A stretch of DNA of 64,000 nucleotides from NCBI GenBank assembly GCA_017512555.1, contig JAFWFE010000063.1, positions 1 through 64,000 of the forward strand. Direction: 5' to 3'. The DNA is from Solobacterium sp. GTDB lineage: Bacteria; Bacillota_I; Bacilli_A; Erysipelotrichales; Erysipelotrichaceae. Shown here piece after piece: positions 43,669-61,414 of the stretch. A model generated the notes under the pieces. It was given only the letters and a program-made list of their open reading frames with translations, ran no database searches and had not been told where the DNA came from. How positions within the stretch are numbered: position 1 is the first letter of the stretch; every line of letters begins with the position of its first letter. Made by a program: the position numbers and the translations under genes.

Positions 43669-43783
43669 AGATTTAATTATGGACGATTTTTGGGTGAAAT
43701 GGTATATATAAATGATGTTACTGATTCTTCTCTTGTTATGGAGAGTGTAATACATAGAGTACATAAATACGGAGAAACTGCTG

Positions 43784-44989
43784 ATGAATCTTCTCTTTTT
43801 GATAGATTATATAAATTATGGGCTTGGCGCTGAGCGTGCGTTACTGAATATTGCAAACAGTTTATGTGATAAACATAATGTAGTAATTGCTGCTAGATTT
43901 GATGGTGGCAATCCCAGTTACTGGATGGATCCCCGGATCGATTATAGATTGTTGAATACTGAGCGTGATCTTCCTCTGCATAAAAAGGTTTTTAGTTATC
44001 TGAAAGAAACACAAGCGTTAAAGAGGCTAAAAAAGGAAATACAAGCAGATATCTCTATTAGTTTTCTTGAAACAGCCAATTTTCTCAATGTCGTCAGCGG
44101 AGGACCGGGTAAGACGGTCATATCTATAAGGAATTACTATTCGCTTGGTCTTAAATCAGACTATGCATTCATACAACGCATCAAAGCAGTGTGGTCTGGA
44201 AAGACAGCGGACCAGGTAGTTTGCGTATCAGAGATGATCAGGCAGGATATGGTGAAACACTTCAAAGCTCCGCAAAAGAAAACATGTGTTATTTACAATA
44301 TGTACAATGTGCAGCAGGAGGCCGTTCCATACAGAGAAGATATCTATGACTTGTTTATTCAGCGTAAAGGCGGCAGTCATTCAGTGTTTATTACAACAGG
44401 CAGATTAACTGTGCAGAAAGGACAATGGCATTTAATCAGAGCATTTAAAAAGGTGCATGAAGTCATTCCGGATGCTGTATTGTTTATCTTTGGAGGAGGA
44501 TCTCTGGAAAACTATCTGTCCATGCTGATTCGTGAGAACAATCTGGAAGATAGTACTTATCTGATGGAATTTGATCCGGGGATTGTACATTATTTAAAAG
44601 AAGCAGATATCTATGTTTCCCCATCTTTATGGGAAGGATTCAGCAATTCTATTCTTGAAGCACTTTGTAACGGAATGCCCGTTATTTCTACTGATTGCCA
44701 TACCGGTCCTAGGGAGTTGCTTGCACCTGATACGGATTATTCTTATGAAACAGATAAAATCGAATATGCTAAGTACGGCATACTGGTTCCTGCTGGTTCA
44801 GAAAAAAGGTTAATCAATGAACCACTAACTGCTGATGAAGAGCTGCTTGCAGACGCAATGATTGCATTAGCAAAGCATCCTGAATTAAGAGAAAAGTATG
44901 CTCGTGCGGCATTAGAACGTGCAGAGCTGTTCAAACCGGAATTAATCACAAGCCAATGGGAATCGTTGCTTAAGACACTTACTCAATAA
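43784..44989 (+). CDS. GT4 glycosyltransferase
   Basis: The product has 401 residues. FLIDYINYGLGAERALLNIANSL, TTGRLTVQKGQWHLIRAFKKV, FIFGGGSLENYL and SPSLWEGFSNSILEALCNGMPVI (EX7E) mark a GT4 enzyme. The C-terminal DCHTGPRELLAP is characteristic of poly(glycerol/ribitol) and alpha-glycosyl transferases such as TagE relatives and other GT4. It starts 116 nt from the leftward GT2 gene and is followed by 153 nt without a gene containing the promoter of the next unit. Confidence 0.9.
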   Translation: MNLLFLIDYINYGLGAERALLNIANSLCDKHNVVIAARFDGGNPSYWMDPRIDYRLLNTERDLPLHKKVFSYLKETQALKRLKKEIQADISISFLETANFLNVVSGGPGKTVISIRNYYSLGLKSDYAFIQRIKAVWSGKTADQVVCVSEMIRQDMVKHFKAPQKKTCVIYNMYNVQQEAVPYREDIYDLFIQRKGGSHSVFITTGRLTVQKGQWHLIRAFKKVHEVIPDAVLFIFGGGSLENYLSMLIRENNLEDSTYLMEFDPGIVHYLKEADIYVSPSLWEGFSNSILEALCNGMPVISTDCHTGPRELLAPDTDYSYETDKIEYAKYGILVPAGSEKRLINEPLTADEELLADAMIALAKHPELREKYARAALERAELFKPELITSQWESLLKTLTQ

Positions 44990-45074
44990 AGCCATGCGTA
45001 CATTCTTTAGACTGTATGGGCTGAGTGGCGTTTGACTTCTGTTAGAAAGAGTTCAAGATGCGGTGGACTCGCAT

Positions 45075-45103
45075 TTGATACTCTGTACCCTTTTTGTTAA
45101 TAT
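45075..45103 (+). promoter_or_regulatory. Promoter of GT4-GT2 pair
   Basis: TTGATA (45075-45080), a 17-bp spacer and TAATAT (45098-45103); TATACT at 45101 is an alternative -10. AAAGGAG (45121-45127) follows 15 nt before the ATG, a rather long spacing. Confidence 0.5.
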
Positions 45104-45142
45104 ACTAGTTGTTATATCCAAAGGAGTATAAAAACCTGCGAA

Positions 45143-46231
45143 ATGAAAAGGATTGCACTGGTACTGCATGGGCTGCAGGCTTATACCGGAACGGAAGTCA
45201 TGTTTGCCAATCTCAGCCATTATATAAATACTGAACAGATACATCTTACTTTTTTTATTGCTATTGATCCAGGTGAGCCGCAGTTTTTGGAGAATGAGGT
45301 GAAACAGTCTGGTGCAGATGTTATCCATCTTCATGATCTTGATCATTTCCGGTTTCTTTTATGGCCGTGGACACTCTACCGTGCTTTTAAGCAGTATGGA
45401 CCGTTTAATGCTGTTCATGCCAATATGAACCTGCAGAATGGTGTTGTCCTGGCTTCTGCCCGTCTTGCCGGGATTCCCATGCGTATCTGCCACGCACATA
45501 CAAGTGCCCATAATCGTGATCATACTTCTCTTTTGCGGCGCATATACCGGTCTTTGATGCGTTCTTTGATCCATCGTTACGCGAATGTGCGTTTGGCCTG
45601 TGCAGAGGATGCCGGCTTATATTACTACGGGAATGATTCTTTTACGATACTTGATAACGGAATCGAACTATCCCGTTTTGATTACTGTAATTCTGAGAAG
45701 AGAAGGGAACGTACAAGATTTATCGCTGTCGGCCGTTTCGCTGCAGAGAAGAACCCGTTTTTCCTGCTGGATGTATTTGAGGCAGTGTACCGGAAGAACA
45801 AGAATGCACATCTGACCTGGGTGGGTACCGGTCCGCTGCAGAAAGAGATCAAAGATCAGGTACACCGGAAAGGATTGGATACTGCGGTAACTTTCCTCGG
45901 CCAGAGAAAAGATATACCGGAATTGATGCGCGAAGCAGATATTTTCCTGTTCCCTTCACGAGCAGAAGCTCTGGGTCTTGCGCTGGTGGAAGCCCAGGCT
46001 GCAGGTTTAACCTGTTATGCATCTGATCGTGTACCGAAGAAAGCAGACTGCGGTCTCTGCCGGTTTCTTTCCCTTGATCTTACGGCGGAAGAATGGGCAG
46101 AAACGATCCTGCATGAGGATACATTCTTGGTACAAGACCGTAAGAAGCTGGAACGGTATGATATCCGTCACATGGCAGACCGGCTGACTGCGTTGTATCT
46201 TACTGACACAGAAGAAAGGACATCCGTATGA
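45143..46231 (+). CDS. GT4 glycosyltransferase
   Basis: The product has 362 residues. VLHGLQAYTGTEVMFANLSHYI, CHAHTSAHNRDHTSLLRRI, FIAVGRFAAEKNPFFLLDVF, WVGTGPLQKEI and PSRAEALGLALVEAQAAGL fit a GT4 enzyme. Its relatives include EpsF-like and WbnK-like transferases; donor unknown. It shares a transcript with the following GT2 gene (overlap 4 nt). Composition is more like the chromosome than the A+T-rich centre of the locus. Confidence 0.9.
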   Translation: MKRIALVLHGLQAYTGTEVMFANLSHYINTEQIHLTFFIAIDPGEPQFLENEVKQSGADVIHLHDLDHFRFLLWPWTLYRAFKQYGPFNAVHANMNLQNGVVLASARLAGIPMRICHAHTSAHNRDHTSLLRRIYRSLMRSLIHRYANVRLACAEDAGLYYYGNDSFTILDNGIELSRFDYCNSEKRRERTRFIAVGRFAAEKNPFFLLDVFEAVYRKNKNAHLTWVGTGPLQKEIKDQVHRKGLDTAVTFLGQRKDIPELMREADIFLFPSRAEALGLALVEAQAAGLTCYASDRVPKKADCGLCRFLSLDLTAEEWAETILHEDTFLVQDRKKLERYDIRHMADRLTALYLTDTEERTSV

Positions 46232-47256
46232 TGCCTCCTATAATCAGTGTCATTATCCCTGTATATAACGCGGAGAAGTATCTGGATAAGTGTCTGTCTT
46301 CTGTCTGTGCGCAGACATTTCAGGCATTGGATATTATTGTGATCGATGATGGATCTACAGACAGCAGCGGTAAAATTGCGGATACGTTTGCGCAGAGAGA
46401 TCCCCGTATCCGTGTCTTTCATACAGAGAACCGCGGGCACTATCTGGCAAGGGGAACAGCAATAGCAGAAGCCCACAAGGCCGGCAGTTCCTATATCGGC
46501 TTTGTGGACAGTGATGATACGATCGTGCCAGAGATGTACGAAGTGATGTATCAGAGAGCTGTGGATACCGGTGCTGATATAGTGGAGTGTGGGTTCTTTC
46601 AGGATTATCCCGATCATACGACTGTATGGAGGCCTGCGGAAGGTGTCCGGGATACCACCGCAGCCCTGTGTGAATTATTCCGCGGGAGATCTCGTGACTT
46701 CTTCTGGAATAAATTGTGGCGTATTTCCTGCTTTGATGGTTTTTCTTTCCCAGATGCACAGGCCTATGCGGATATATCTGTTAGTTACCGTATTTATTCA
46801 AAAGCCAGAATCTTTGCGGGTATAGTACAGCCTTTATATCATTACCGACAAGTATCTGATAGTATCGTACATAAGAACGATATGCGTCTTCTTAGACTCT
46901 GGCAGTATAATCGCGAGAAGTATATGTATATTCTTACAGAGATGAGATCCCGGATTGGTCCGGATGTCTATGCTGAAATAGAAAATAGCCAGCTCTCCCG
47001 CTGTGTCTATGCCATCGGAAAGAACTGGGTCTGGTGGTTGAATCATACCCCTCAGGAACAGGAATTATACCGGGATGAACTGTATGCCATGTCTTCCTTT
47101 ATTTGCACGTATACGCCTGTTTTCGGCCGCTCCGGGTGGTCTTTCGCATTCCGGTTGACGTGTCTGCTGGCACGTTTCCCTAATCGTGTATCTTTACGGA
47201 TTTCCTATCTGTTGGAGAAGGTTTTGCTGGCATTTCGTAAACGCAGGTATTATTAG
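46228..47256 (+). CDS. GT2 glycosyltransferase
   Basis: The product has 342 residues, beginning ATGATG. ISVIIPVYNAEKYLDKCLSSVCAQT, IIVIDDGSTDSSGKIAD, NRGHYLARGTAIAEAH and FVDSDDTIVPE are the GT2 motifs; NKLWRISCFDG follows. The C-terminus is helical and Arg-rich (LLAFRKRRYY). It overlaps the GT4 gene by 4 nt. Its end is 10 nt from the end of a leftward gene. Confidence 0.9.
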   Translation: MMPPIISVIIPVYNAEKYLDKCLSSVCAQTFQALDIIVIDDGSTDSSGKIADTFAQRDPRIRVFHTENRGHYLARGTAIAEAHKAGSSYIGFVDSDDTIVPEMYEVMYQRAVDTGADIVECGFFQDYPDHTTVWRPAEGVRDTTAALCELFRGRSRDFFWNKLWRISCFDGFSFPDAQAYADISVSYRIYSKARIFAGIVQPLYHYRQVSDSIVHKNDMRLLRLWQYNREKYMYILTEMRSRIGPDVYAEIENSQLSRCVYAIGKNWVWWLNHTPQEQELYRDELYAMSSFICTYTPVFGRSGWSFAFRLTCLLARFPNRVSLRISYLLEKVLLAFRKRRYY

Positions 47257-47266
47257 TACAGGTCTC

Positions 47267-48127
47267 TCACTCCGCCTTAAAATCAACTACTAGTACTTCG
47301 GGTATGTTATTCACCCGGGGTATTTTTTCCGTATTTCCCAGTCCCTTGGACAGGATCATGTGTTTCCTGCCGTCCTTGGAGTCATATATCCCGTATTCCT
47401 TTCCGCAGAACCATCCCTGATCCGGCGCATATAATCCTCCGATGAAGGGAATCTGTATCTGTCCTCCATGAGAATGCCCGCTGAAGACACAGTCCACATC
47501 CCATGCGTCCAGTGAACCATTGATGATCCAACATACCGGCATATGACACATCAAGATTGTATATAACTCTGTATCCTGATATTCCTTCAGGAACTCCGCT
47601 TCCTGTCTCCGGTTATTCTCTACCGCGTATCTCTCCGGCAGACAGTAGCCGTAGATTCCACCCAGACGAATATCCTGTCCATTGACGGAGATCTCTTCCC
47701 ACGCATACTCCAGCACATGAGCTCCGGTTTCCTCATAAAGGGCGGTAATATCGGTACCGTACCGATTCTCATAACCCTTTTCATGATTGCCTAAGGAGAT
47801 ATATACCGGAGCAGCAGGGACCAGCTGCCGGATCAGTTCTACAGCGATCTCTGTTGTCTCTTCATCCTCATTCAGCAGATCCCCGGTAATCAGAATCATA
47901 TCCGCATCCTGCTGTTTGACCAGGGATACCAGTTTCTCATTGTTCTCCCCAAATACACTATTATGCAGATCGGTAAGCTGGACAATACGGAAATCATGAG
48001 AAAGCCTGTCCGAGGTAATCTCATAGTATGAACATTCCAGCCAGTTCTTCGATGTATAAATACTGAAACTGACTAGACCAGCCAGGCTGAACAGGATCAC
48101 TAAGATAATGACAACGATCTTTTTCAT
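47267..48127 (-). CDS. Membrane-anchored metallophosphoesterase, YaeI/YkuE-like
   Basis: The product has 286 residues. One N-terminal membrane helix (residues about 4-24) and a catalytic domain outside or at the membrane: QLTDLHNSVFG, ITGDLLNED, LGNHEKGYE, CHMPVCW and GHSHGGQIQIP give the DxH, GDxxD/E, GNHE, H and GHxH blocks of calcineurin-like esterases. Relatives (YkuE, YaeI) cleave phosphate esters, sometimes from lipids or wall polymers. Start 48127 is chosen over 48139, since TATGAT at 48140-48135 lies just upstream. It is convergent with the GT2 gene. Confidence 0.9.
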   Translation of the reverse strand: MKKIVVIILVILFSLAGLVSFSIYTSKNWLECSYYEITSDRLSHDFRIVQLTDLHNSVFGENNEKLVSLVKQQDADMILITGDLLNEDEETTEIAVELIRQLVPAAPVYISLGNHEKGYENRYGTDITALYEETGAHVLEYAWEEISVNGQDIRLGGIYGYCLPERYAVENNRRQEAEFLKEYQDTELYTILMCHMPVCWIINGSLDAWDVDCVFSGHSHGGQIQIPFIGGLYAPDQGWFCGKEYGIYDSKDGRKHMILSKGLGNTEKIPRVNNIPEVLVVDFKAE

Positions 48128-48134
48128 CGTCTGT

Positions 48135-48140
48135 ATCATA
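48135..48140 (-). promoter_or_regulatory. -10 element of metallophosphoesterase gene, leaderless
   Basis: TATGAT ends 7 nt before the ATG at 48127. No SD; -35 weak. Confidence 0.35.
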
Positions 48141-48216
48141 CCGCAATCCGATGTCTGAAGGAAAACAGAAATATCTTCCGGTTGTTAAATTCCGATAAAT
48201 GATAGACAATTTAAAC

Positions 48217-49995
48217 ATGAGTGAAGACAGAAATCAAACCGCAGAGACAGCAGCATTCCGTTCTCTGGACACATTATATAAACGCTGGAAAGAAGGCACT
48301 TTCGGAGAAATCCTGGAAGACTGGAAATGGATCTTTTCCTATTCCAGCCGGTACAAGGGAACAATCGTCTTCTATACGTTCCTCGGTATCTTCAGCTCTA
48401 CCCTGGCTCTCGTTTCCGGTGTCGTCAGTAAGTACATCATTGATATCGTCACTGGCTACCAGTATGAAAAGCTCGGTATTCTGATTGCCCTGTATGTCGG
48501 CAGTTCCGTCTTCAGCCTGGTCTTCTCAAGTCTGTTGAGCAGAGTTACCGCAAAACTCTCCCTGCGGATCAACCATGAGATCCAGGCGGATATCTTTGAC
48601 AAGATCATGGACGCAAAGTGGCTGGAGATCTCCAAGTATAGGAACGGGGATATCCTGAACCGTTTCAACGGGGATGTCAGCGCCATCGCAAATAACGCGG
48701 TCTCCTGGATCCCGAATATTATCATTGCGGTCTACAGTTTCATTGCGACATTCGTGGTGATCTGGCACTACAGCAAGCTCATGTCCCTGCTTTCGTTTGC
48801 TTCCGCACCGGTTATGCTGCTGATGAGCCGTTTTGTTATCCGCAAACAGCGTGAGTATAACCGCAAGACCCGGGAGATCTCTTCCAAGGTCATGACCTTC
48901 GAGGTAGAGACCTTCTACAACATGGATACGATCAAGTCTTTCGGGATCGCTCCTCTCTACGGCAGAAAGCTCAGAGAATGGCAGGATAAATACAAGGATA
49001 TCTATCTCGACTTTAATTTATTCAGTATTCAGGCCAAGGCTTTCATGTCCCTGGTGGGCAGGATCGTCCAGTTTATCGTTTTCGGCTACTGCCTGTATCT
49101 GCTTTGGACGCATGAGATCACCTACGGTACGATGACCCTGTTCCTGACCCAGAGAGCCCGGATGACCTCTGCGTTTAATAATATTATCTCGGTAGTACCG
49201 TCTTTCCTGTCTGCTTCGGTATCTGCCCACCGTCTGCGTGAGCTGGTTGACCTGCCGAATGAGGACCATATTCCCGCAGAGGCGGAAGTGAGCGGGAAGC
49301 TGTCCGTTGTGATGGAGGATGTAAGTTTCGGCTATGAAGAGAATACGCCAGTATTTACGGATGTGCAGTTTACGGCAGAACCGGGTGAGATCGTTGCGCT
49401 TGTCGGTCCTTCCGGCCAGGGCAAGACAACGATGATGCGTCTGATCCTCGGGCTGGTAAGTCCCCTGCAGGGTAAAGCAGGAATACTCAGCGAAGATCAT
49501 ACATTTACACCGGGCAATGCCGATATCCGCCGGTACTTCTCCTATGTGCCCCAGGGGAATACGATTCTCTCCGGCACCATCGCTGAGAATATGCGGATCG
49601 TAAAGGAAGATGCTACAGATGAAGAGATCATCGCCTGTCTGAAGAGTGCCTGTGCCTGGGAGTTCGTGGAACGGATGCCGCTGGGCATCAACAGTCCGGT
49701 GGGAGAGCGCGGCAAAGGACTTTCGGAGGGACAGGCCCAGCGTATTGCGATTGCCAGAGCGTTACTGCGTGATGCCCCGGTATTATTGCTGGATGAGGCT
49801 ACTTCTGCTTTGGATGTCACTACTGAACGCAATGTACTCCGCAATATCATGCAGGATCATCAGGAACGCACTTGTATCGTGACTACCCACAGGCCAAGTG
49901 TTTTGGGCATCTGCCAGCGTGTCTACGGTGTGCAGGGCGGCAAAGTTCGCGAACTGGATGAGGAAGAGTCTGTGGAGCTGGCAATGGAGTTCTGA
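48217..49995 (+). CDS. Type I ABC exporter half-transporter
   Basis: The 592-residue protein has a membrane domain (about residues 35-330, six helices) and an ATPase domain: LVGPSGQGKTTMMR (Walker A), SYVPQGNTI (Q-loop), KGLSEGQAQR (signature, LSEGQ instead of LSGGQ), VLLLDEATSALD (Walker B), TTHRP (H-loop). A homodimer is likely since no partner gene is adjacent. Substrate unknown: drugs, lipids or a peptide are possible. The start at 48217 is preferred; TTGTTA (48182-48187), 17 bp and GACAAT (48205-48210) end 6 nt before it, and no SD is visible. An ATG at 48199 lies upstream of that -10. A terminator follows. Confidence 0.9.
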   Translation: MSEDRNQTAETAAFRSLDTLYKRWKEGTFGEILEDWKWIFSYSSRYKGTIVFYTFLGIFSSTLALVSGVVSKYIIDIVTGYQYEKLGILIALYVGSSVFSLVFSSLLSRVTAKLSLRINHEIQADIFDKIMDAKWLEISKYRNGDILNRFNGDVSAIANNAVSWIPNIIIAVYSFIATFVVIWHYSKLMSLLSFASAPVMLLMSRFVIRKQREYNRKTREISSKVMTFEVETFYNMDTIKSFGIAPLYGRKLREWQDKYKDIYLDFNLFSIQAKAFMSLVGRIVQFIVFGYCLYLLWTHEITYGTMTLFLTQRARMTSAFNNIISVVPSFLSASVSAHRLRELVDLPNEDHIPAEAEVSGKLSVVMEDVSFGYEENTPVFTDVQFTAEPGEIVALVGPSGQGKTTMMRLILGLVSPLQGKAGILSEDHTFTPGNADIRRYFSYVPQGNTILSGTIAENMRIVKEDATDEEIIACLKSACAWEFVERMPLGINSPVGERGKGLSEGQAQRIAIARALLRDAPVLLLDEATSALDVTTERNVLRNIMQDHQERTCIVTTHRPSVLGICQRVYGVQGGKVRELDEEESVELAMEF

Positions 49996-50196: not shown

Positions 50197-53100
50197 ATGA
50201 ATAAAAAAGTATTATCAGTTATTTTGTCAGCGCTGATGAGTATCAGTGTGCTGCAGACACCGGTGTTTGCGGCAGGAGATGAACCCGAAGCTGACGGACA
50301 GGAAGAAGTAACAGAAGTACAGGAAAACACAGCAGAAGAAACCGAAGAAGTACAGGAACCTGAAGAAGAGGAAGAGAACCTCGAAGAACCGGCAGAAGAA
50401 ACTCCGGAAGTGACGGAAGAATCAGAAGAATCCGAGATTCTTGAAGTAGCGGAAGTTCTTGAAGAAACAGAAGAACCGGAGGAAACACCAGAGGTCCAGC
50501 AGGAGACAGAAGAGCCGGAAGAAAGCGAAGCTCCCGAAATCACTGAACCTGAAGAACCGGCAGAAGAGTCTGAAGAGACAGTGGAAGATCCTGAAGAGAA
50601 TGAGGATCTTTTGATCGCTGAAGAAGAGGAAGAAGAAGATGTTGTACTTACGGAAACATCGGAAGAAGAGCCTGAAGTGACCCTGATCACTCCGGAGCCG
50701 GTGACCTACAATGGTGTAACCGTAACGGTCAGCTATCTTTCTGATACTTTTGGTAGTAAAGAAGTCACAATGATCGTCGGTGAACCAGGTGAAACAGAAA
50801 AAGAAGCCCTGGAAGCCCTTGGCAGATCTTTCAAAGCGGTCGATATCACATTCATTGACGAAGAAGGCAATCCTGTCCAGCCTGAAGAAGGAAAGAATGT
50901 GTCGGTATCGCTTGAAGCAGACGGCATGAAAGATACCGGGAACTATGGAGTTGTGCATGTCGACGGTGAAGGAAACATCACCGAGCTGGATGCGGTACCG
51001 GAAGTTACAAATACGGTCACAGAACATGTGAAAGTCGGCGAAACAACCAGAACGATCGAAGTCCCTGCGGAGACAGAAATCGTAGAAGTACAGAATTATA
51101 AAGAAGAGACATACACAGAGTATGAACTGAAAGAACAGACGATTGAAGTCCCTGCGGTCATTTCCTACCGGTATGTACGCAAGAGCAGAGAAGCAGAAGT
51201 AACGCAGGGCACTTGGGGATTCTTCAATTATGGAAAATCCGGACAGAACCAGACACGTACAGAGTACTACTACGAGAAAGAACCGTATGTTGTAAGAGAA
51301 GCGTACACATATTCAACGTGGAAAAGAACACCTGTGCAGAAGACAAGGACAGTCCCTGCCGGAACACGTAATGAAACAAGAATCGTAAAGGAAGCCTATT
51401 CCTACGAAGTTACGGAAGATATCTATGAAGATGTTGTATACAACGATGTACAGACATCCTTTGAGGCAGGAAGTTTCTCTGTCTATGCGGTAATCGGCGG
51501 TTCAACCGATGATGAGGCACGTGCAATCGTCAATTTCTACGGCATAGATAATGCACTGATCACTACATATTTTGTTAAGAACAGTGACCAGATGCCGCCG
51601 GCTAATGAAGCTGAAAGACAACCCGGTGTACAGTATATCGATGATATCGTAACTGACCCGGGTATTGGCGGAACCCTGCCTGGAAACCAGATCTTTGTCG
51701 GCTGGTATATCGGCAATTCAGATGATTATACAACTACCACTGCGCCGAAGACGATCAACGATATCCGTCAGTATCTTGTTGATCAGACATTCACGGAAGG
51801 TGAGACCATCATCAATGTCTACGCAATGATTTTCAAGGTCTTTACCGTAACATATCTGGATGAACAGAATATTTCCATGGGCTCGGATGAAGTGAAAGTG
51901 CGCACTTCCGAATCCAACGGCGCGTACACCGTCAGTAAGACCTATGTACCGGTTGATCCGACTAAGAACTTTGAGGGCTGGCAGACAGAAAATGACAGTT
52001 TCATTGCTGACGCACAGTACAGCGGTGAAGCAGCATCCGAACCATACAAAATGGGTACAACCATGACCATCTCCGGCGATATTACCTTTACTGTTTCCGC
52101 ACCGAAAGGCCGCTGGCTGATTTTTGACGAGAACGGCCGCGGAGCTACCTATAATGCGCCGCAGTTCGTCAGGGACGGTGAAGTTACGCATGAGCCAGCA
52201 CTGGATATGATCAGGCTTGGTTATACATTTGTCGGCTGGTATACGGTGAAATACGATGACGATGCAACACCGGATGAAGCCAACAGGTTTGAATTCGGAC
52301 AGGAACTGGAACAGCCTTCGACAACAATCTATGCCAAGTGGACATCCGTGGAAACTGCGCACTATACAGTCATTTACTGGAAACAGAAAGTGGACGGTTC
52401 AGATTATGATTTCGAGCATTCCCAAACCATTACCGGGAATGTCGGCACAACGATCAATGTAACAGCATCTGGTACGACAGTTGCGGTCACCGGTGCGAAT
52501 ATTTACAACATTGAAAAAGGATTCAGTTTCAAAGAAGCCGACACAGGCAAGACTATCTCCGCTACCGGTAATACAGTTATCAATGTATATATTCAGCGGA
52601 ACCAGTACACCCTGACATTCCGTGCTCCGGGTTATACTTACACACCGACAACCAGCAGCTTCGGTACGCAGTATGGTCTTGTGGATGGTGTATATGTGGA
52701 ACTCAACTGGCACCTTGGCTGGGGAGGCATTTATTGGACTTATGGAGATACATGGGGCAGCGAAGGACCAGTCTATACCGGAACCCGCTACACACGCAGC
52801 CAGGGTGAAATGACAGTTAAGGAGATTACTGCGTATTACGAACAGAACATTTCCGATTACTTCCCGATTGAAGGCGACAACGGTGTTACATACAACCATG
52901 GTGAGCGTTGGAAGCCGGGTACAAACGGCCTTGGATGGACGGAAGTCATGGTCTTTATTGACACAATGCCTAACGAGAATGTCACTTTCACACTGGATGA
53001 GGCAGACCGGCCGCTGAAGACGATGTACTACTACGTGGAGGCATTGGATACCGATACCACCACAATCACGCACAAAGGAACGAAATACGTACTGTACAAC

Positions 53101-55443
53101 ACAGTTGCTGCCCGGTACAACGGCGTGACAACGGAAGACTTCATCGACCTGGACGGTTTCGCGAAAGTTGAAGCTGCTGCCACTATCGGCGGAGCGGCTT
53201 TGACACCGTATACAATTTCTGGCGTATCCGGTCAGTGGTACATCTACAATACTGATCAGGACCAGTCAATCTACTTCTTCTATACCCGTCTGAAGTATTC
53301 CATCAATTTCATGGACGGCGGTTACTTTGATGGTGAAGGTAATCCGCTGACGGATGATTATTCAACTGTCGGACAGTGGAAAGCAGTAGATAACATTGTC
53401 TACGGATCTAACATCGCCTCCTACAACAAGGGAGGAGCTGACTACTATGAACCTGCAGCAGCATATCCGGGATTCATATTTGAAGGCTGGTACATCGATG
53501 ACAGATGTACGACACCGTACACATTTACAACCATGCCGAAGGGCGGCCTGACGCTCTATGCAAAGTGGCGTCAGATCCAGTACCGTGTGTTCATGCATCC
53601 GAATGCCAAACTGCCGGACGGAACCAATGACAATACCCTCACCTGGGGTAGTGCAACCCAGGACCTGAACTTCCGTGTATCCTATATGGGTCAGGTGAGT
53701 ATGCCGACAGGCCTGCGCGATGAGTACGAGTTCATCGGCTGGTTCCTTGATGAAGAGACGAGCATTCCGTTCAACGAAGATACGAAGCTGACAGAAGACA
53801 TTGTTACTGCCGATTATGACAAGACAGACCCTGCCAACTACACTGATCCGATGAACAAGTTCGGTGAGATTGAAGGCCAGGGAAGTAATTCTGATCTGAC
53901 CGGGAATAATGGATCCGAACGTTTCTGGATCACGAAAAAACTGGATCTGTATGGCAAGTGGAGCGCTATACTGACAGGCGCACAGGGCATCGGTGTTATC
54001 TATGATGCAAATGGTGGTTCCAATGCTCCGGATGACACCCGGAAGTACAAGGACAATGTCCAGGCGATTGCCCAGGCAGCATCCACACCTCCGGCGAATT
54101 ACCGGTTCCTGTACTGGGTCGTTCAGAAGTGGGACGGCACTGCATACGTCGATGCGAAAGACAGCAGCGGTAAGTTGTTGACTGTCTACCCGGGTGACGG
54201 CTTCACCGTGCTGAAGAATTACGCCAAAGTAACCGACCTGACGCCGGGTGATGAAGGATACTCTGAAGAAGATGAAATCTACAAGGCGTATACCATGCAG
54301 CTGCGTGCAGAATACGGTCCGGAAGAAGCCAGTAAAGATACCTATATGAACTGGTACAAGAATGACCAGGATCCTTCCGAACTGCTGCACGAGGATAAAG
54401 ACCTCCTGATCAACGAGGCAGTGGATATCTACACACTGACTTCAGGAATTCCGACCCGTACAGGTTATAAGTTCCTCGGATGGGCCCGCGAGGCAGAATA
54501 TGCGCTGAGTGAAGATAACAAGCCGACCGGCGATGCCATTACATATTACGATGTAGATGAAGATGATTTGTATTTGAAGTGGGTCGAAACCACAGGGGGA
54601 GAAGGACACTACGAAGCAAAGAATTCCTCTGGTTCTTGGGTGACAGTTACACAGGTCGCTGCTGATGAAAAGATGCCGTACCATGCATTATATGCAGTAT
54701 GGAAACTGGATCACTTCTTCATCTTCCATTCTGCCACCGGTGTGCTGGAAGCTGTGGAATATACAGATACCATTGACCTGACAGAATATGTCACAAATGG
54801 TTATCTCTACGGCGGTTACTACAGTGCCTATACACGCTATGAAGCAACAGATGCAGATAAGGCTAACGCAGAAAAGAGCGCAGACCTCAAGATAACGATT
54901 CCTGACAGTACGTATACTCCCGAAACAGACAGTACGCATGTTGGTTCATGGAATATCGATAATGCATACACTGCGCCTGGAACATCTATGAAACCGGATG
55001 CGCAGACGGTCTACTACCTGAAGGAAGTGAAGACACGTTATCTGCAGAATTATCACCAGATCACCTACAACAAGACTTCTCTTGAGTTGACAGGTCTCTA
55101 CCTCTTTACTGCAATCGATGATACGAATTATAACGAGAACGGATTTACACTGAAGTCTACAGATGGTAAGACAGCAACGGTTGTACAGACCTTCTCGATT
55201 ACCAATGCATCAGGTAAAACTGTCGTGCTGAAAGCCAATACGATCTTCAAGAATAAAGGCCTGGCCGGAGATGGATACCTTGGATACTGGAATGTTACTG
55301 GTTCGAGTTACTATACTACAGGATCATTCACGATATTGCCTTATTGGGTAACACCGGATACGATCAAAGTTGATGGAATCAGTACCAGAACGGTAACGGT
55401 TACTGAGATGACCAAGTCAGGGATCACCAAGTCTGATGAATAG
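50197..55443 (+). CDS. Giant secreted surface protein 1, InlB-type repeats
   Basis: The 1,748-residue protein has a Sec signal peptide (residues 1-25, cut after VFA), an acidic Glu/Pro/Thr stalk (about 27-160), an N-terminal module (about 165-430) shared with the two other giant proteins, and at least four InlB/Flg_new-type repeats (GYTFVGWY, GFIFEGWYIDD, YEFIGWFLDEE, YKFLGWARE) at about 674, 1090, 1177 and 1424. A C-terminal module (1505-1748) follows, conserved in giant protein 2 and containing NYHQITYNKT and LTGLYL. No LPXTG, membrane tail or SLH domain is present, so the anchoring mode is unknown. Start is supported by AGGAGG 10 nt upstream; the ATG at 50134 lies before the RBS. It overlaps a small EF-hand gene by 8 nt. 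Confidence 0.9.
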   Translation: MNKKVLSVILSALMSISVLQTPVFAAGDEPEADGQEEVTEVQENTAEETEEVQEPEEEEENLEEPAEETPEVTEESEESEILEVAEVLEETEEPEETPEVQQETEEPEESEAPEITEPEEPAEESEETVEDPEENEDLLIAEEEEEEDVVLTETSEEEPEVTLITPEPVTYNGVTVTVSYLSDTFGSKEVTMIVGEPGETEKEALEALGRSFKAVDITFIDEEGNPVQPEEGKNVSVSLEADGMKDTGNYGVVHVDGEGNITELDAVPEVTNTVTEHVKVGETTRTIEVPAETEIVEVQNYKEETYTEYELKEQTIEVPAVISYRYVRKSREAEVTQGTWGFFNYGKSGQNQTRTEYYYEKEPYVVREAYTYSTWKRTPVQKTRTVPAGTRNETRIVKEAYSYEVTEDIYEDVVYNDVQTSFEAGSFSVYAVIGGSTDDEARAIVNFYGIDNALITTYFVKNSDQMPPANEAERQPGVQYIDDIVTDPGIGGTLPGNQIFVGWYIGNSDDYTTTTAPKTINDIRQYLVDQTFTEGETIINVYAMIFKVFTVTYLDEQNISMGSDEVKVRTSESNGAYTVSKTYVPVDPTKNFEGWQTENDSFIADAQYSGEAASEPYKMGTTMTISGDITFTVSAPKGRWLIFDENGRGATYNAPQFVRDGEVTHEPALDMIRLGYTFVGWYTVKYDDDATPDEANRFEFGQELEQPSTTIYAKWTSVETAHYTVIYWKQKVDGSDYDFEHSQTITGNVGTTINVTASGTTVAVTGANIYNIEKGFSFKEADTGKTISATGNTVINVYIQRNQYTLTFRAPGYTYTPTTSSFGTQYGLVDGVYVELNWHLGWGGIYWTYGDTWGSEGPVYTGTRYTRSQGEMTVKEITAYYEQNISDYFPIEGDNGVTYNHGERWKPGTNGLGWTEVMVFIDTMPNENVTFTLDEADRPLKTMYYYVEALDTDTTTITHKGTKYVLYNTVAARYNGVTTEDFIDLDGFAKVEAAATIGGAALTPYTISGVSGQWYIYNTDQDQSIYFFYTRLKYSINFMDGGYFDGEGNPLTDDYSTVGQWKAVDNIVYGSNIASYNKGGADYYEPAAAYPGFIFEGWYIDDRCTTPYTFTTMPKGGLTLYAKWRQIQYRVFMHPNAKLPDGTNDNTLTWGSATQDLNFRVSYMGQVSMPTGLRDEYEFIGWFLDEETSIPFNEDTKLTEDIVTADYDKTDPANYTDPMNKFGEIEGQGSNSDLTGNNGSERFWITKKLDLYGKWSAILTGAQGIGVIYDANGGSNAPDDTRKYKDNVQAIAQAASTPPANYRFLYWVVQKWDGTAYVDAKDSSGKLLTVYPGDGFTVLKNYAKVTDLTPGDEGYSEEDEIYKAYTMQLRAEYGPEEASKDTYMNWYKNDQDPSELLHEDKDLLINEAVDIYTLTSGIPTRTGYKFLGWAREAEYALSEDNKPTGDAITYYDVDEDDLYLKWVETTGGEGHYEAKNSSGSWVTVTQVAADEKMPYHALYAVWKLDHFFIFHSATGVLEAVEYTDTIDLTEYVTNGYLYGGYYSAYTRYEATDADKANAEKSADLKITIPDSTYTPETDSTHVGSWNIDNAYTAPGTSMKPDAQTVYYLKEVKTRYLQNYHQITYNKTSLELTGLYLFTAIDDTNYNENGFTLKSTDGKTATVVQTFSITNASGKTVVLKANTIFKNKGLAGDGYLGYWNVTGSSYYTTGSFTILPYWVTPDTIKVDGISTRTVTVTEMTKSGITKSDE
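55173..55252 (+). repeat. 80-bp perfect repeat, copy 1
   Basis: Identical to 60800-60879 over 80 bases; encodes part of the C-terminal module (TVVQTFSITNASGKTV). Confidence 0.95.
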
Positions 55444-55711
55444 AAACATTGCAAAGAAGACATATAGCGGTCCAATATTCTTTGGGCTCACCCCGGAAGA
55501 CGATCCTGGTATCGTTCTGCCCCCTTCTCAAGGCACAAGTGGTGAGGACCCTCAGTTCACATGGAATCCTGCTATTGATTCAAACGATATTGACATGTTC
55601 TGGGTAAGCCATGATGAAACAGATCTTGCAGAGATGGATACAGACCACGATCTGTATATCTCTAAAGCGGAATTCGACGCATGGTTTGCCAGCATTGGCG
55701 GTAACTGGTAA
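55436..55711 (+). CDS. Small EF-hand protein coupled to giant protein 1
   Basis: The product has 91 residues. The ATG lies in ATGAATAG, whose TAG ends the giant gene, an 8-nt overlap in the +1 frame; no good SD precedes it, so translation probably depends on termination-reinitiation. Residues 68-79 (DTDHDLYISKAE) form a canonical EF-hand loop with Asp at 1, 3, 5, Ser at 9 and Glu at 12. A central PGIVLPPSQGTSGEDP is identical in the second copy. There is no signal peptide, although the partner is secreted. Ends in SIGGNW. Function unknown; Ca2+ binding is inferred. Confidence 0.85.
   Translation: MNRNIAKKTYSGPIFFGLTPEDDPGIVLPPSQGTSGEDPQFTWNPAIDSNDIDMFWVSHDETDLAEMDTDHDLYISKAEFDAWFASIGGNW
55621..55695 (+). 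repeat. 75-bp perfect repeat, copy 1
   Basis: Identical to 61254-61328; covers the EF-hand region of the small gene. Confidence 0.95.
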
Positions 55712-55739
55712 GAATCAGTCAAACAACGAGTAACAGAAG

Positions 55740-55780
55740 AGAGGTTAGTGCAGTCAAAAGATTGTGATAACCTCTTTTTT
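55740..55780 (+). terminator. Terminator of unit 1
   Basis: AGAGGTTA...TAACCTCT stem with an inner GCAGTC/GATTGT pairing around AAAA, then TTTTTT. Confidence 0.9.
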
Positions 55781-55958: not shown

Positions 55959-58900
55959 ATGAACAAAAAAGCTCTATCTGTTATTCTGTCATTGCTGATG
56001 AGTGTCAGTGCATTTCAGACACCAGTGTTTGCGGCAGGGGAAGAACCCGAAGCTGACGGTCAGGAAGTAACAGAAGTACAGGAAAACACAGAAGAAGAAA
56101 TCGAAGAAACACAGGAACCGGAAGAAGAGGAAGAGAACCTTGAGGAACCTGCAGAAGAAACTCCGGAACTGACGGAAGAATCAGAAGAAACCGAGATTCC
56201 TGCAGTTACGGAAGTTCCTGAAGTAACAGAAGAGCCGGAAGAAACCGAAGCTCCCGAAGTTACTGAGCCTGAAGAACCGGCAGAAGAGACCGAAGAGACA
56301 GTGGAAGATCCCACGGAGAGCGAGGGTCTTTTGATCGCTGAAGAAGAGGAAGAGGAAGACGTCGTTCTTGCGGAAACCCCGGAAGAAGAGCCTGAAGTGA
56401 CCCTGATCACACCGGAGCCGGTGACTTATAACGGTGTAACGGTAACGGTCAGCTATCTTTCTGATACTTTTGGTGGTAAAAAAGTCACCATGATCGTCGG
56501 AGAACCTGGTGAAACGGAGAAAGAAGCACTGGAAGCCCTTGGCAGATCTTTCAAAGCGGTCGATATCACATTCATTGATGAAGAAGGCAATCCTGTCCAG
56601 CCTGAAGAAGGAAAGAATGTGTCTGTCACGCTCGAAGCAGAAGATATGGAAGATACCGGAATGTATGAAGCTGTACATGTCGACAGTGAAGGAAATGTCA
56701 CTGTGATGGAAGCAACATCAGAAGTAACGAACACGGTCACCAGACAGGAAAAAGTCGGCGAGACGACCAGAACGGTTGAAGTCCCTGCGGAGACAGAGAC
56801 TGTCGAAGTACAGGACTATAAAGAAGAGACATACACGGAGTATGAACTGAAAGAACAGACGGTCGAAATCCCTGCGGTCATTTCCTACCGGTATACACGC
56901 AAGAGCAGAGAAGTAGAAGTAACACAGGGCACATGGGGATTCTTCAATTATGGAAAATCCGGAAAGAGCCAGACACGCACAGAGTACTACTACGAGAAAG
57001 AACCGTATGTAGTAAGAGAAGCGTACACGTATTCGACGTGGAAAAGAGTGCCTGTGCAGAAGACAAGGACAGTCCCTGCCGGAACCCATACAGAGACAAG
57101 AGTCGTACGTGAAGCTTACACCTATGAGGAAACAGAAGATGTCTACGAAGATGTTGCATACAACGATGTACAGACATCCTTTGAAGCAGGCAGTTTCTCG
57201 GTATATGCGGTTGTAACAGCCGCACCTACCACCGGAGAAGAGTTTGTCATATACTCTGGGACAACAGCTTTGGCTTATAGTGGAAACGGTGGCCTTACTA
57301 CTGCATCAATAACAGTTGAAAACGACATAGTTCGCTCAGGCAGTGATAATATCGTATGGACGTTTACAGAAATCGGAACAGATGCTAACGATAATATAAT
57401 CTATCGCATTTCATACACCTCTGGATATACTACTCGCTATCTCAGGTATAGTAGCAGTCAAAACAGTCTGGCATTAGGTACATATACCAATAACAGTGAA
57501 TGGATATATGATCAATATAATCATCGCCTGACTCAAGGAAACAGATATCTTAGGTATAACAATAATACGTTTACTTTAACGACAAATGTTAATCAAGCAT
57601 CTGCGATTTATCTTGCTCATGTTGAAGATGAACCGGTACCCGGAGATTTAAATTATTACTATTACAATGCAGATCGTACTGCCTCGATCAGTGCTTCGGA
57701 AGTAGCTGAAACACTCACTACTGACTGGGTCGATGTCTCAACACTTGCTAAAGAGATCACTGGTTATACATATCTTGAGGCAAGAGCGAATAGTAAAGAT
57801 GGTGATGTGATCACCGAAGTTAATGGAAGAGCATATCGTCATGGAACAGAAACGAGCGGTAGCGGATCTCGATTAGATAATATCTATTTTATTTACATGA
57901 AGGATTATGTTGCTGGCGAAGATGTGATCCCTGGTCTGAACGGTCCTGTCACCGAGAAGGAAGTTACACAGAATCCAGATGGTACATTTACCATTACGTT
58001 GGATGTTACCGGTGTTGTGAATGAAGTCAAGCATGGTGCTAATGTTGTTATTGTATTTGACCGTACATATAGTATGAGCGGCAATATGAGCAATACTGAC
58101 CGTACAATGCGTATCAATGCAGCGATATCTGCCGTCAACACACTGGTAACCACGCTGAATCCGGGCGATCCGTCAATCGAGGGGTTCAATGATATTGATT
58201 TTGCCTTGGTTGAATTTGATCGAAACGCAGCGGTATATGACTTCGGGACAAATGGTATTTCCGGACATACGAACTGGACAAAGAGCGGCAGCGCTTTGAC
58301 AACACGTATCGAAAGGTATCGGAACGGTCAGAATCTTGCGGCATCCGGAGCTACTCAAGGTGGTGGCGGCACCAACTGGCAGGCAGCACTGCAGGCTACG
58401 GCATCAGTACTTGAAAACAAGCCGGATGCCGATCCTACTTATGTCATTTTCATGACCGATGGTGAACCGACGATCTACATAGGGAGTGATGAGGTTCATA
58501 ACACCAACATAACAACATCGAGTCCGGAATATGCTAGAGCTGAACCGTATGCAACTGCTATCGTCAGTGCAGATTATCATATGTATGACATTTTCTGCAG
58601 TGCCAGTACAACGACATTACTACAGTCCCTGTACACAACATCCCACGCAGACAGTTATGTCATGGCAGAAACCCAGGCAGCAGTTGAGCAGGCATTTGCA
58701 AATGTTGCTCAGGCCATGATTGATGCGATTGGTTCCAGCAACTATGGTGTCAACGATGGTGTTCCTGAACTTGGATCTTTCGATATCAATACAGTAGATG
58801 GGACACTTGGTGAGGCTAGATACTATAAGAAAGAAGCAAATGAAAGTGCCTTTACGGAATGGACAAATGCGCCGGCAGCAACACCTTCTTCAACGGGTGT

Positions 58901-61076
58901 TCTGTGGGATCTGACATCTGTCGGAACGCTGACAGGTGATACAGTATATCGAATCGAATTCGAAGTATGGCCGAGCCAGGCGGCGTATGACTTGATTGCT
59001 GATTTGAACAATGGGCTGCGGTTCTACGATTATGCTGATTATCTGGCTTCCAATCCGGATCCTGTGCTGACAGAAGAAGCAGCAGTTACAGCCGGTCTGG
59101 TTCTGACTGCTGATCAACGGTCGCAGATTACGGAACCGGCAAGTGCAGATGCTGAGTATACGATGAAGACAAACACCACCCTGTCCGCAACTTACAAACT
59201 GTATGGACAGACAATTACTGAAGATGACATTGACTTCACAGCCGATGCTATGGATCTGCCGGTAGAACCGATTTCTGTCAAGAAGATATGGCCGGCAAAT
59301 ATGCTGGACGAATACGGAGCAGCGGATTACCGTGATCCTGAAACCGGAGAAACCTTCACTGCTACAGAAATCGTGCTTACATTGAAGCGTGATGGTCAGA
59401 ATTACATGGATATTCTGGTCAAGGGAAGTGAAGGGTGGAAAAAGGATGACATCTTTGTTTCCAACGGCTTCATGACAGTAGAAACTGTTGATGGTCAGAA
59501 GGTTGCGCATATCAAAGAGGTAGGACATGATTACCAGTTGGTTGAACCGCCGGCATTCATGTATTACTGGGATCTGGTATCGGATATCTATCATCCGATG
59601 GTCATCAACGGGGTTCCAACATTACTGGTCTACAATCAGGATAAGAAAGCAGCAGACGTTGACAACGTGACATACTTTGCAATCGGCCAGAATGACGATG
59701 GAACACCGAGGGTCTATGAAAAGCATGCTGCTACGGACAATACCCTGGAAGGTTCAAACTATCGTAGATCTAATCTGAACCTGACCAAGGTTATTACATC
59801 CGGTGATGCTGATGCCCTCTTCACTTACACTGCAACGGTTAATGATTCTTATTCAACAGACGGCTATGTGTGGTTCTCTGTTTGGGATCCTGCTGTGAAC
59901 GGTCTGACCTTTGATGCGGAAGTAACCGGTGCTACCAAGGAAACCAAGACTATTCCTGCAGATGCTACCATGAACGATGACGGTACATGTACATTCCCGG
60001 TTGAAAACCCGAGAACACATGTGATCACCAATGAAACATATCCGGTTGCAGGTGACGGGAAGTACTATACCGGTTACTACTATGCGACAAACGGTGCGAC
60101 AATCACTTTGAAGATCAAGGCAACATGGAACGTCCGCTTCCTGAACCTGTATCATGGCTCTACATATAGCTTTGAAGAAACAGGCATGCCGGGCAACTTT
60201 GAATTCCAGAGTGTTGAAGCAAGCACACAGTGGAACTTCATGCATCAAGACAACGCAGACTGGTATGAAATTGTTGAAGGAAACGCAAATGGTAAGATCA
60301 CAGGAACGATAACAGAACCGAACAACAATTATACGGTCAAGTATACCAATAAACCGAAACAGGAATTCTACATCTATCACTCTGGTGTTGCGACAGACGG
60401 TAATCTGGAAGTCATTCCGATGACAGCAGTCAACACAGATGGGACATATGACCTGTACGCAAAGACAACGGCAGGAACTCTCTACGGTGGTTATTATCTC
60501 GATTACGCCGGTAAGGGTGACTATGCGGATGATGGTATCAAGGGAACGACCGGCGTTGCCTACACAGGTATGAACTATGAGTGGTCAAATCCGCAGACTG
60601 TGGACGGAAGCGCGATGAAGCCTGTAGCCGGCGAGACCTATTATATTAAAGAAGTTCCGACATACTATCTGAGAAACTATCATCAGATCACTTATAATAA
60701 GACCACCCTCAAACTGACAGGTCTCTATCTTATGTCCGCGATTGATGATACAAACTATAACGAGACCGGATTCCTGCTGCAGACAACAGATGGCAAGGAA
60801 GCAACGGTTGTACAGACCTTCTCGATTACCAATGCATCAGGTAAAACTGTCGTGCTGAAAGCCAATACGATCTTCAAGAGTCTCGGTATCACTGAAGACG
60901 GTGAGTATCTGACATACTGGAACGCGACCGGAAGCAGTTACTTCGCTGCGAATACAACATTCACAGTCAAGCCATACTGGAAGACACCTGACGGAATCCT
61001 CGTAAAGGGAACAAGTACACGTACGATCGAGATTGTTGATCTTACAAAGAGTGGTATTTCCAAGATTGATGAATAG
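55959..61076 (+). CDS. Giant secreted surface protein 2, vWA and Cna-B domains
   Basis: The 1,705-residue protein has a signal peptide (1-25), acidic stalk, the shared N-terminal module (about 150-420), a beta-rich region (425-560, ...RYLRYSSSQNS...), and a vWA domain (about 690-930) with a MIDAS reading DRTYS at 701-705 (DxTxS) and TDGEP at 834. A Cna-B-like domain (about 1104-1215, SVKKIWP...EIVLTLKRDGQ) and a pilin-like domain (1271-1440, LTKVITSGDADALFTYTATV) follow, then the C-terminal module (1467-1705). vWA and Cna-B domains are usual in pilus-tip adhesins; no LPXTG or membrane tail is present. RBS AGGAGG. It overlaps the small EF-hand gene by 8 nt. Confidence 0.9.
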   Translation: MNKKALSVILSLLMSVSAFQTPVFAAGEEPEADGQEVTEVQENTEEEIEETQEPEEEEENLEEPAEETPELTEESEETEIPAVTEVPEVTEEPEETEAPEVTEPEEPAEETEETVEDPTESEGLLIAEEEEEEDVVLAETPEEEPEVTLITPEPVTYNGVTVTVSYLSDTFGGKKVTMIVGEPGETEKEALEALGRSFKAVDITFIDEEGNPVQPEEGKNVSVTLEAEDMEDTGMYEAVHVDSEGNVTVMEATSEVTNTVTRQEKVGETTRTVEVPAETETVEVQDYKEETYTEYELKEQTVEIPAVISYRYTRKSREVEVTQGTWGFFNYGKSGKSQTRTEYYYEKEPYVVREAYTYSTWKRVPVQKTRTVPAGTHTETRVVREAYTYEETEDVYEDVAYNDVQTSFEAGSFSVYAVVTAAPTTGEEFVIYSGTTALAYSGNGGLTTASITVENDIVRSGSDNIVWTFTEIGTDANDNIIYRISYTSGYTTRYLRYSSSQNSLALGTYTNNSEWIYDQYNHRLTQGNRYLRYNNNTFTLTTNVNQASAIYLAHVEDEPVPGDLNYYYYNADRTASISASEVAETLTTDWVDVSTLAKEITGYTYLEARANSKDGDVITEVNGRAYRHGTETSGSGSRLDNIYFIYMKDYVAGEDVIPGLNGPVTEKEVTQNPDGTFTITLDVTGVVNEVKHGANVVIVFDRTYSMSGNMSNTDRTMRINAAISAVNTLVTTLNPGDPSIEGFNDIDFALVEFDRNAAVYDFGTNGISGHTNWTKSGSALTTRIERYRNGQNLAASGATQGGGGTNWQAALQATASVLENKPDADPTYVIFMTDGEPTIYIGSDEVHNTNITTSSPEYARAEPYATAIVSADYHMYDIFCSASTTTLLQSLYTTSHADSYVMAETQAAVEQAFANVAQAMIDAIGSSNYGVNDGVPELGSFDINTVDGTLGEARYYKKEANESAFTEWTNAPAATPSSTGVLWDLTSVGTLTGDTVYRIEFEVWPSQAAYDLIADLNNGLRFYDYADYLASNPDPVLTEEAAVTAGLVLTADQRSQITEPASADAEYTMKTNTTLSATYKLYGQTITEDDIDFTADAMDLPVEPISVKKIWPANMLDEYGAADYRDPETGETFTATEIVLTLKRDGQNYMDILVKGSEGWKKDDIFVSNGFMTVETVDGQKVAHIKEVGHDYQLVEPPAFMYYWDLVSDIYHPMVINGVPTLLVYNQDKKAADVDNVTYFAIGQNDDGTPRVYEKHAATDNTLEGSNYRRSNLNLTKVITSGDADALFTYTATVNDSYSTDGYVWFSVWDPAVNGLTFDAEVTGATKETKTIPADATMNDDGTCTFPVENPRTHVITNETYPVAGDGKYYTGYYYATNGATITLKIKATWNVRFLNLYHGSTYSFEETGMPGNFEFQSVEASTQWNFMHQDNADWYEIVEGNANGKITGTITEPNNNYTVKYTNKPKQEFYIYHSGVATDGNLEVIPMTAVNTDGTYDLYAKTTAGTLYGGYYLDYAGKGDYADDGIKGTTGVAYTGMNYEWSNPQTVDGSAMKPVAGETYYIKEVPTYYLRNYHQITYNKTTLKLTGLYLMSAIDDTNYNETGFLLQTTDGKEATVVQTFSITNASGKTVVLKANTIFKSLGITEDGEYLTYWNATGSSYFAANTTFTVKPYWKTPDGILVKGTSTRTIEIVDLTKSGISKIDE
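60800..60879 (+). repeat. 80-bp perfect repeat, copy 2
   Basis: Identical to 55173-55252. Confidence 0.95.
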
Positions 61077-61344
61077 AAACATGGCAAAGAAAGCATATAA
61101 CGGGCCAAAAATTTTCGAGGTTGACCCTACAGCTGATCCCGGTATCGTTCTGCCCCCTTCTCAGGGCACAAGCGGTGAGGACCCTCAGTTCACATGGGAT
61201 CCTGCTATTGATCAAAATAGTATTGATATGTTCTGGTTAAACCATGACGAAATAGATCTTGCAGAGATGGATACAGACCACGATCTGTATATCTCTAAAG
61301 CGGAATTCGACGCATGGTTTGCCAGCATCGGCGGCAACTGGTAA
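61069..61344 (+). CDS. Small EF-hand protein coupled to giant protein 2
   Basis: The product has 91 residues and is identical to the first copy at 75 of 91 positions; residues 63-91 with the EF-hand loop (68-79) and residues 23-43 are unchanged. Differences gather at residues 5-22. The ATG again lies in ATGAATAG at the giant gene's stop. An upstream TTG at 61033 is less likely. No signal peptide is seen. The gene is followed by a terminator. Function unknown; role as partner, chaperone or anchor of the giant protein is only inferred from coupling. Confidence 0.85.
   Translation: MNRNMAKKAYNGPKIFEVDPTADPGIVLPPSQGTSGEDPQFTWDPAIDQNSIDMFWLNHDEIDLAEMDTDHDLYISKAEFDAWFASIGGNW
61254..61328 (+). repeat. 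75-bp perfect repeat, copy 2
   Basis: Identical to 55621-55695. Confidence 0.95.
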
Positions 61345-61370
61345 GAGTCAGGCAAACAACGAGTAACAGA

Positions 61371-61414
61371 AAAGAGGTTATTGCAGTCAAAAGATTGCTA
61401 TAACCTCTTTCTTT
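61371..61414 (+). terminator. Terminator of unit 2
   Basis: AAAGAGGTTAT / ATAACCTCTTT stem, inner GCAGTC/GATTGC pairing around AAAA, T-rich end. Confidence 0.9.

Follow-up and report, generated by a model that had tools for sequence, protein, structure and literature searches.

A candidate RiPP-like precursor gene paired with genes for giant secreted proteins in a Solobacterium genome

Results

The window, that is, the whole 64,000-nucleotide stretch of the Solobacterium sp. contig that was analysed, carries on its forward strand tandem units that are each composed of a gene for a giant secreted protein and a small gene behind it. Two units are complete within the window. Giant gene 1 (50197..55443) encodes a signal peptide, Flg_new/InlB-like repeats and a conserved C-terminal domain, giantC, and is followed by small gene 1 (55436..55711), our RiPP-like precursor candidate; giant gene 2 (55959..61076), which encodes a signal peptide, a VWA domain and giantC, is followed by small gene 2 (61069..61344). 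Both small genes are open reading frames of 91 residues. Giant gene 3 begins at 61589, reaches the end of the window at 64000 and continues on the same strand to contig position 66367, as part of a third unit (contig 61544-66644) whose small gene (contig 66360/66381-66644) lies outside the window. Upstream of the units, also on the forward strand, is a gene for an MsbA-like ABC exporter (48199..49995) with PF00664/PF00005 and MsbA-type matches, a candidate LppD-like protein. Adjoining it on the minus strand is a calcineurin-like metallophosphoesterase gene (47267-48139). The exporter gene of genome G008 (L072) is likewise preceded, at this place and on this strand, by a gene of comparable length. 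The wider setting is a capsule-type locus, with glycosyltransferase genes upstream (42655-47256) and, downstream, genes for two proteins that read from their sequences as Wzz/BY-kinase-like (contig 70746-73717; L005:9746-12717).

Small genes 1 and 2 are each followed by a forward-strand RNA hairpin (55735..55780, z -5.6, and 61368..61408, z -5.4). Behind small gene 3, outside the window, there is again a hairpin, followed by genes for an HprK-like P-loop kinase (66718), two PqqD proteins (67457 and 67740) and an NTP_transf_5 protein (68008-69252). Hairpins 3' of the small gene were found in eight units of the genus (z -4.7 to -6.9) and in 11 of 12 spacers elsewhere, which would fit with a precursor that is expressed above the enzymes encoded behind it.

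Giant genes 1 and 2 both close with the 9-mer GATGAATAG (55435-55443 and 61068-61076), inside which sits the ATG of the small open reading frame. The sequence-only reading of this DNA had pointed out the resulting identical 8-nt overlap and the want of a clear Shine-Dalgarno (SD) sequence, and both observations stand, as no SD match longer than 3 nt lies upstream of the overlap ATG in either unit. That reading went on to propose strict coupling and, from it, a fixed stoichiometry with the giant protein. Neither proposal survived comparison with related loci. The 9-mer is not more frequent in the window than expected by chance (2 observed vs 0.9 expected), and since the units are tandem paralogues their identical overlap reflects common ancestry and is not independent evidence of selection. 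The third unit has the identical overlap at contig position 66360 and reads GATGAATAGGAGGGATAGAAACATGGCAAAG, in which AGGAGG precedes an in-frame ATGGCAAAG. The corresponding stretch of units 1 and 2 is GATGAATAGAAACAT(T/G)GCAAAG, from which the 9 nt between ATAG repeats that carry AGGAGG in unit 3 are missing. Small gene 2 retains ATGGCAAAG but has no SD in front of it, and in small gene 1 the ancestral ATG of the MAKK start is now ATT. MAKK is where homologous small proteins start. In 18 of 18 other units the small gene lies behind the giant stop, at distances of 8-32 nt that between them give each of the three relative frames, and in 17 of these units it is preceded by an SD match of 4 nt or more. 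Given that the homologues start at MAKK, the overlap ATG is best read as left over from the final codons of the giant gene and perhaps now used by units 1 and 2. As far as these sequences tell, the 8-nt overlap is a lineage-specific outcome of the loss of the small gene's own ribosome-binding site, and as a sign of fixed stoichiometry it was ruled out. Units 1 and 2 may depend on termination-reinitiation at ATGAATAG. In genome G008 a small open reading frame behind giant A (L007:4757-4966) keeps the EF loop DTNNNQFISKKD and has ATA in place of ATG, and is probably a decaying copy.

The giant proteins have N-terminal signal peptides and middle regions that differ (InlB-like repeats, VWA or no known domain), and share a conserved C-terminal domain that has the motif YYLKEVP..YLR and is predicted to contain an Ig-like sandwich. 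None of 26 giants has an LPXTG motif or a C-terminal transmembrane or hydrophobic segment. A Pfam search with the C-terminal domain gave no credible match, and Foldseek and VIA-align returned matches to generic Ig-like sandwiches only (Z up to 8.2), which are not decisive for its identity. Among these, the SiiE adhesin matched with Z 7.9 and an rmsd of 2.9 over 90 residues, and the weak Foldseek matches included the pilins SpaA and CppA.

Small proteins 1 and 2 are identical at 75 of 91 residues (82%), including their EF-hand-type loop DTDHDLYISKAE, as the sequence-only reading had noted. It was also right that a signal peptide is lacking, since the maximum 19-residue hydropathy is 0.2-0.4, with no hydrophobic N-terminal segment and no Sec signal. 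Alignment defined an N-terminus of the form M-A-K-K-x-Y-x-x-P-x-[IVL], followed about 20 residues further by S-Q-G-T-S-G. In small protein 1 the YxxP motif (YSGP) is encoded at 55463..55474 and resembles [Y/W]xxPx[LVIFA], a motif to which discrete RREs bind (PMC13381572). The invariant SQGTSG motif, the proposed modification region, is encoded at 55526..55543, under strong constraint between small genes 1 and 2, and the similarly constrained loop DTDHDLYISKAE at 55637..55672 (all on the forward strand). Clostridial small proteins have the corresponding pattern MxKKx[YF]xxPxI ... VIGGGTGQSGxDP. YxxP is not present in several small proteins at the same position (L050, L051, L079, L083, L086, L091, L092 and L094), some of which terminate in SQxxIGW or STQGxG. 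The second cassette of genome G071 (L021:17226-17474) encodes a small protein with WNNP, a WxxP motif, replacing YxxP and with no EF loop. An NCBIfam search left the small protein unnamed. The dN/dS between small genes 1 and 2 is 0.29, and codons 26-45 and 62-91 encode nearly the same residues in both. Selection is still visible, although gene conversion could be a contributor.

The predicted model of the small protein has a low-confidence N-terminal segment of 35 residues and a C-terminal half in which helices flank a single EF-type loop (pLDDT about 80). The loop fits D-x-[DNS]-x-[DNSG]-x6-[DE] in a predicted helix-loop-helix, as a single loop in a model whose global fold match is weak and whose EF-hand matches in structure comparison are local only. 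Pfam EF-hand models remained below threshold (best E 0.06-0.1, 13 bits vs a cut-off of 25), and Dockerin_1 had no match among the window's small proteins and one of E 0.27 only in the small protein of L078. The sequence-only reading had named homologues that keep neither overlap nor EF-hand as evidence against its proposal. The overlap is indeed not kept in the 18 other units, and the loop divides the homologues: comparable loops occur in distant ones (L078, DVNGDGQTNFDD; L094, DVNGNGTPDLLE), and G071, L050, L051, L079 and L083 have none. When acidic sequences of this kind are shuffled, 3-25% of the shuffled versions also show the loop pattern, so that some homologues are likely to bind Ca2+, while for the set as a whole such binding is putative.

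With the C-terminal domain of the giant as query, a scan across 84,980 species genomes yielded 23 loci, mostly in ruminant-gut MAGs and labelled Solobacterium, Erysipelotrichaceae, Lachnospiraceae, Oscillospiraceae, Christensenella or Clostridia. The conserved cassette consists of an MsbA-like ABC exporter, a Sec-exported giant with giantC, a small protein with [YF]xxPxI, an RNA hairpin, an HprK-like kinase, a PqqD/RRE protein and NTP_transf_5. A kinase lies within about 1.3 kb downstream in 19 of the 21 giant genes with room for one when giantC is the only query, the exceptions being one tandem upstream copy and L081; this is a less biased figure than the 23 of 25 non-redundant units with a kinase close downstream, which include units found through the kinase. 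The order kinase-PqqD-NTP_transf_5 behind giant genes recurs in G008, G084 (two cassettes), G076 and G071 (two cassettes), with no NTP_transf_5 seen in one of the two G084 cassettes, where the contig ends. The own small family accompanies the cassette in the own genome and four others of the genus, different small families do so in G078, G004 and G062, and many more distant genomes carry the cassette. The pairing of small with giant gene, which the sequence-only reading saw in one contig, is thus borne out by gene order as real and as reaching far beyond the own genome. The EF loop, too, is under constraint in the window's units. Being located outside the window, the enzyme cassette that would explain the small gene was not visible from the window sequence alone.

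Many cassettes also encode a small single-TM protein or lipoprotein with an acidic tail that ends like GQETTGF, GQDIGGF or GQPVVGG (for example at L005:8312-8683, contig 69312-69683). The tail resembles the ends of YxxP-less small proteins (SQETIGW, STQGIGG, NQPVAYGG), and this protein may be a second substrate or acceptor.

The enzymes resemble those of known modification systems. The PqqD protein matches PF05402 (7.5e-13), its profile matches the solved lasso RREs TfuB1 (7e-7) and TbiB1 (2e-6), and there is a weak match to NCBIfam lasso PqqD chaperones; the NTP_transf_5 protein matches PF14907 (5e-44). The kinase had no match among curated HprK families, and a PDB sequence search with it gave nothing useful, but it is homologous to kinases of canonical SpI-containing clusters in its own genus (hhalign 99.9%), and the RRE is likewise homologous to the RRE of those clusters. 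Exporter homologues near giant genes, not found in every cassette, are 60-62% identical in distant Clostridia and 79-99% in close relatives. Of 70 genomes of the genus, 15 encode an SpI-like protein (about 146 aa; TIGR02228, 8e-10), whose gene adjoins the kinase and RRE genes in several. The SpI-like leader peptidase LppS is absent from the own genome, which is 94.7% complete, and from the giant-type cassettes examined, and the lasso B2 leader peptidase (PF13471) has no match in the own genome, which leaves leader removal unexplained. No macrolactam cyclase (asparagine synthetase-like) was noticed among the genes adjoining the cassettes.

Discussion

In our view the small protein is probably a RiPP-like (LppA-like) precursor, guided by the RRE and phosphorylated, that works with an unanchored giant surface protein. 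That it is a substrate of the adjoining RRE and kinase is, given its motifs and neighbours, a reading in which we have good confidence. The giant and small genes would be transcribed together, and on their mRNA a strong hairpin would come ahead of the modification genes. Precursor may therefore outnumber enzymes. The N-terminal [YF]xxPx[ILVF] segment would be recruited by the adjacent PqqD-type RRE, after which the HprK-like kinase and then the NTP_transf_5 enzyme would modify a conserved Ser/Thr, most likely within SQGTSG. The modified protein would probably leave via the neighbouring MsbA-like ABC transporter and, at the surface, would work with the Sec-exported giant, whose conserved C-terminal domain is encoded next to it. 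The acidic, EF-hand-type C-terminal part of the small protein is a probable Ca2+ binder. Joint action with the giant at the cell surface we put forward as a tentative possibility.

The closest known systems are the LPP RiPPs (Popov et al. 2026, PMC13381572), whose clusters encode an HprK kinase, an RRE, an NTP transferase, an MsbA-like exporter and an SpI-like leader peptidase. LPP precursors are of 35-200 aa, with YxxP and variable C-termini, and are encoded in clusters near capsule loci; LPP production was shown biochemically for one case, and the same paper describes LPP and phospho-lasso RiPPs as having an unknown biological role (PMC13381572). The present locus shares the discrete PqqD-type RRE adjoining the precursor, the HprK-like kinase, the NTP transferase, the MsbA-like exporter, the YxxP precursors with variable C-termini and the capsule-locus setting. 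It differs in that LppS is absent, in having SQGTSG where the published consensus is YxxPxVLxHQxIxFETxxS, which is matched in its fuller form in part only, and in a precursor that has a folded EF-type segment (predicted) and sits behind a giant secreted-protein gene. Phosphorylated lasso peptides of the paeninodin/pseudomycoidin type likewise have an HprK kinase, an NTP transferase and an RRE (B1), whereas here the genome lacks a transglutaminase-like B2 and the cassettes examined showed no cyclase gene. Canonical LPP and lasso peptide were accordingly ruled out as class assignments, by the absence of LppS and of B2, respectively. With LPP-like motifs and enzymes but neither peptidase, the small protein is, by analogy, one that would work like an LPP precursor, yet we do not file it as a member. 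In the HPr-rel-A system (NCBIfam TIGR04352/TIGR04353) the likeness is limited to a weak match of the second PqqD to TIGR04353 (E 0.0024, below cut-off), and the kinase here matches no model.

Several other readings of the small genes deserve consideration. Small genes 1 and 2 could be decaying, with only unit 3 expressed, from its own SD, a situation compatible with the reading as a modified precursor. Loss of the SD from both, the ATT that replaces ATG in unit 1, and the start-less copy behind giant A in G008 suggest as much, but 91 open codons, the low dN/dS and the nearly unchanged motif regions (part of which gene conversion could explain), together with the retained hairpins, make decay rather unlikely. 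The small protein as a canonical LPP or lasso precursor, freed as a small secreted signal or antimicrobial peptide with the giant gene a mere neighbour, would account for enzymes like those of LPP and paeninodin clusters. We consider this quite unlikely, as giantC and the cassette are found together in Erysipelotrichales, Lachnospiraceae, Oscillospiraceae and Christensenella-labelled genomes, neither SpI nor B2 nor a nearby cyclase is at hand, and the C-terminal part is predicted to be folded.

Two further readings, both raised from the window alone, start from the junction. A role for the small protein in the cytosol, where it would serve the giant protein as Ca2+-dependent chaperone, holdback factor or regulator and be made in a ratio fixed by coupling, would agree with the lack of a signal peptide, the position directly 3' of the giant gene and the constrained EF loop. 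It is quite unlikely, however, given that the 18 other units have no overlap and several homologues no EF loop, and that it leaves the YxxP motif and the conserved RRE, kinase and NTP-transferase neighbours unexplained. A giant-small fusion protein made by +1 frameshifting at the overlap, to which the +1 frame of the small gene in the window units lends itself, was rejected as extremely improbable: the relative frame varies among homologues, whose gaps span all three frames, and nearly all have an SD and ATG of their own.

Returning to the reading as a modified precursor, the giants have no anchor of their own, so that, we infer, the small protein could serve as an adaptor. A PsmN-type NTP transferase adds a hexose to phospho-Ser (PMC9266682). 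Conceivably, a Ser-(phosphate)n-hexose end could attach to wall or capsule glycan while the Ca2+-binding EF-type end holds the giant C-terminal domain, a specific model that we regard as speculative and quite improbable in its entirety. The analogy, and it is an analogy only, is with cohesin-dockerin pairs, in that a short EF-loop protein is beside a protein with a predicted Ig-like beta-sandwich C-terminal domain, although no significant Pfam dockerin or cohesin match was found here. A literature search of freely accessible papers found no EF-hand RiPPs and no giant-linked PqqD/HprK sets, and the pairing of a giant protein with a modified peptide is apparently so far undescribed. If true, the adaptor model would amount to a RiPP-based, cohesin-dockerin-like display of giant adhesins. 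More generally, the conserved link between RiPP enzymes and giant proteins in gut bacteria offers a concrete, testable cell-surface role for LPP-type enzymes, and such a role would put RiPP chemistry in surface-protein display, beyond small antibiotics or signals.
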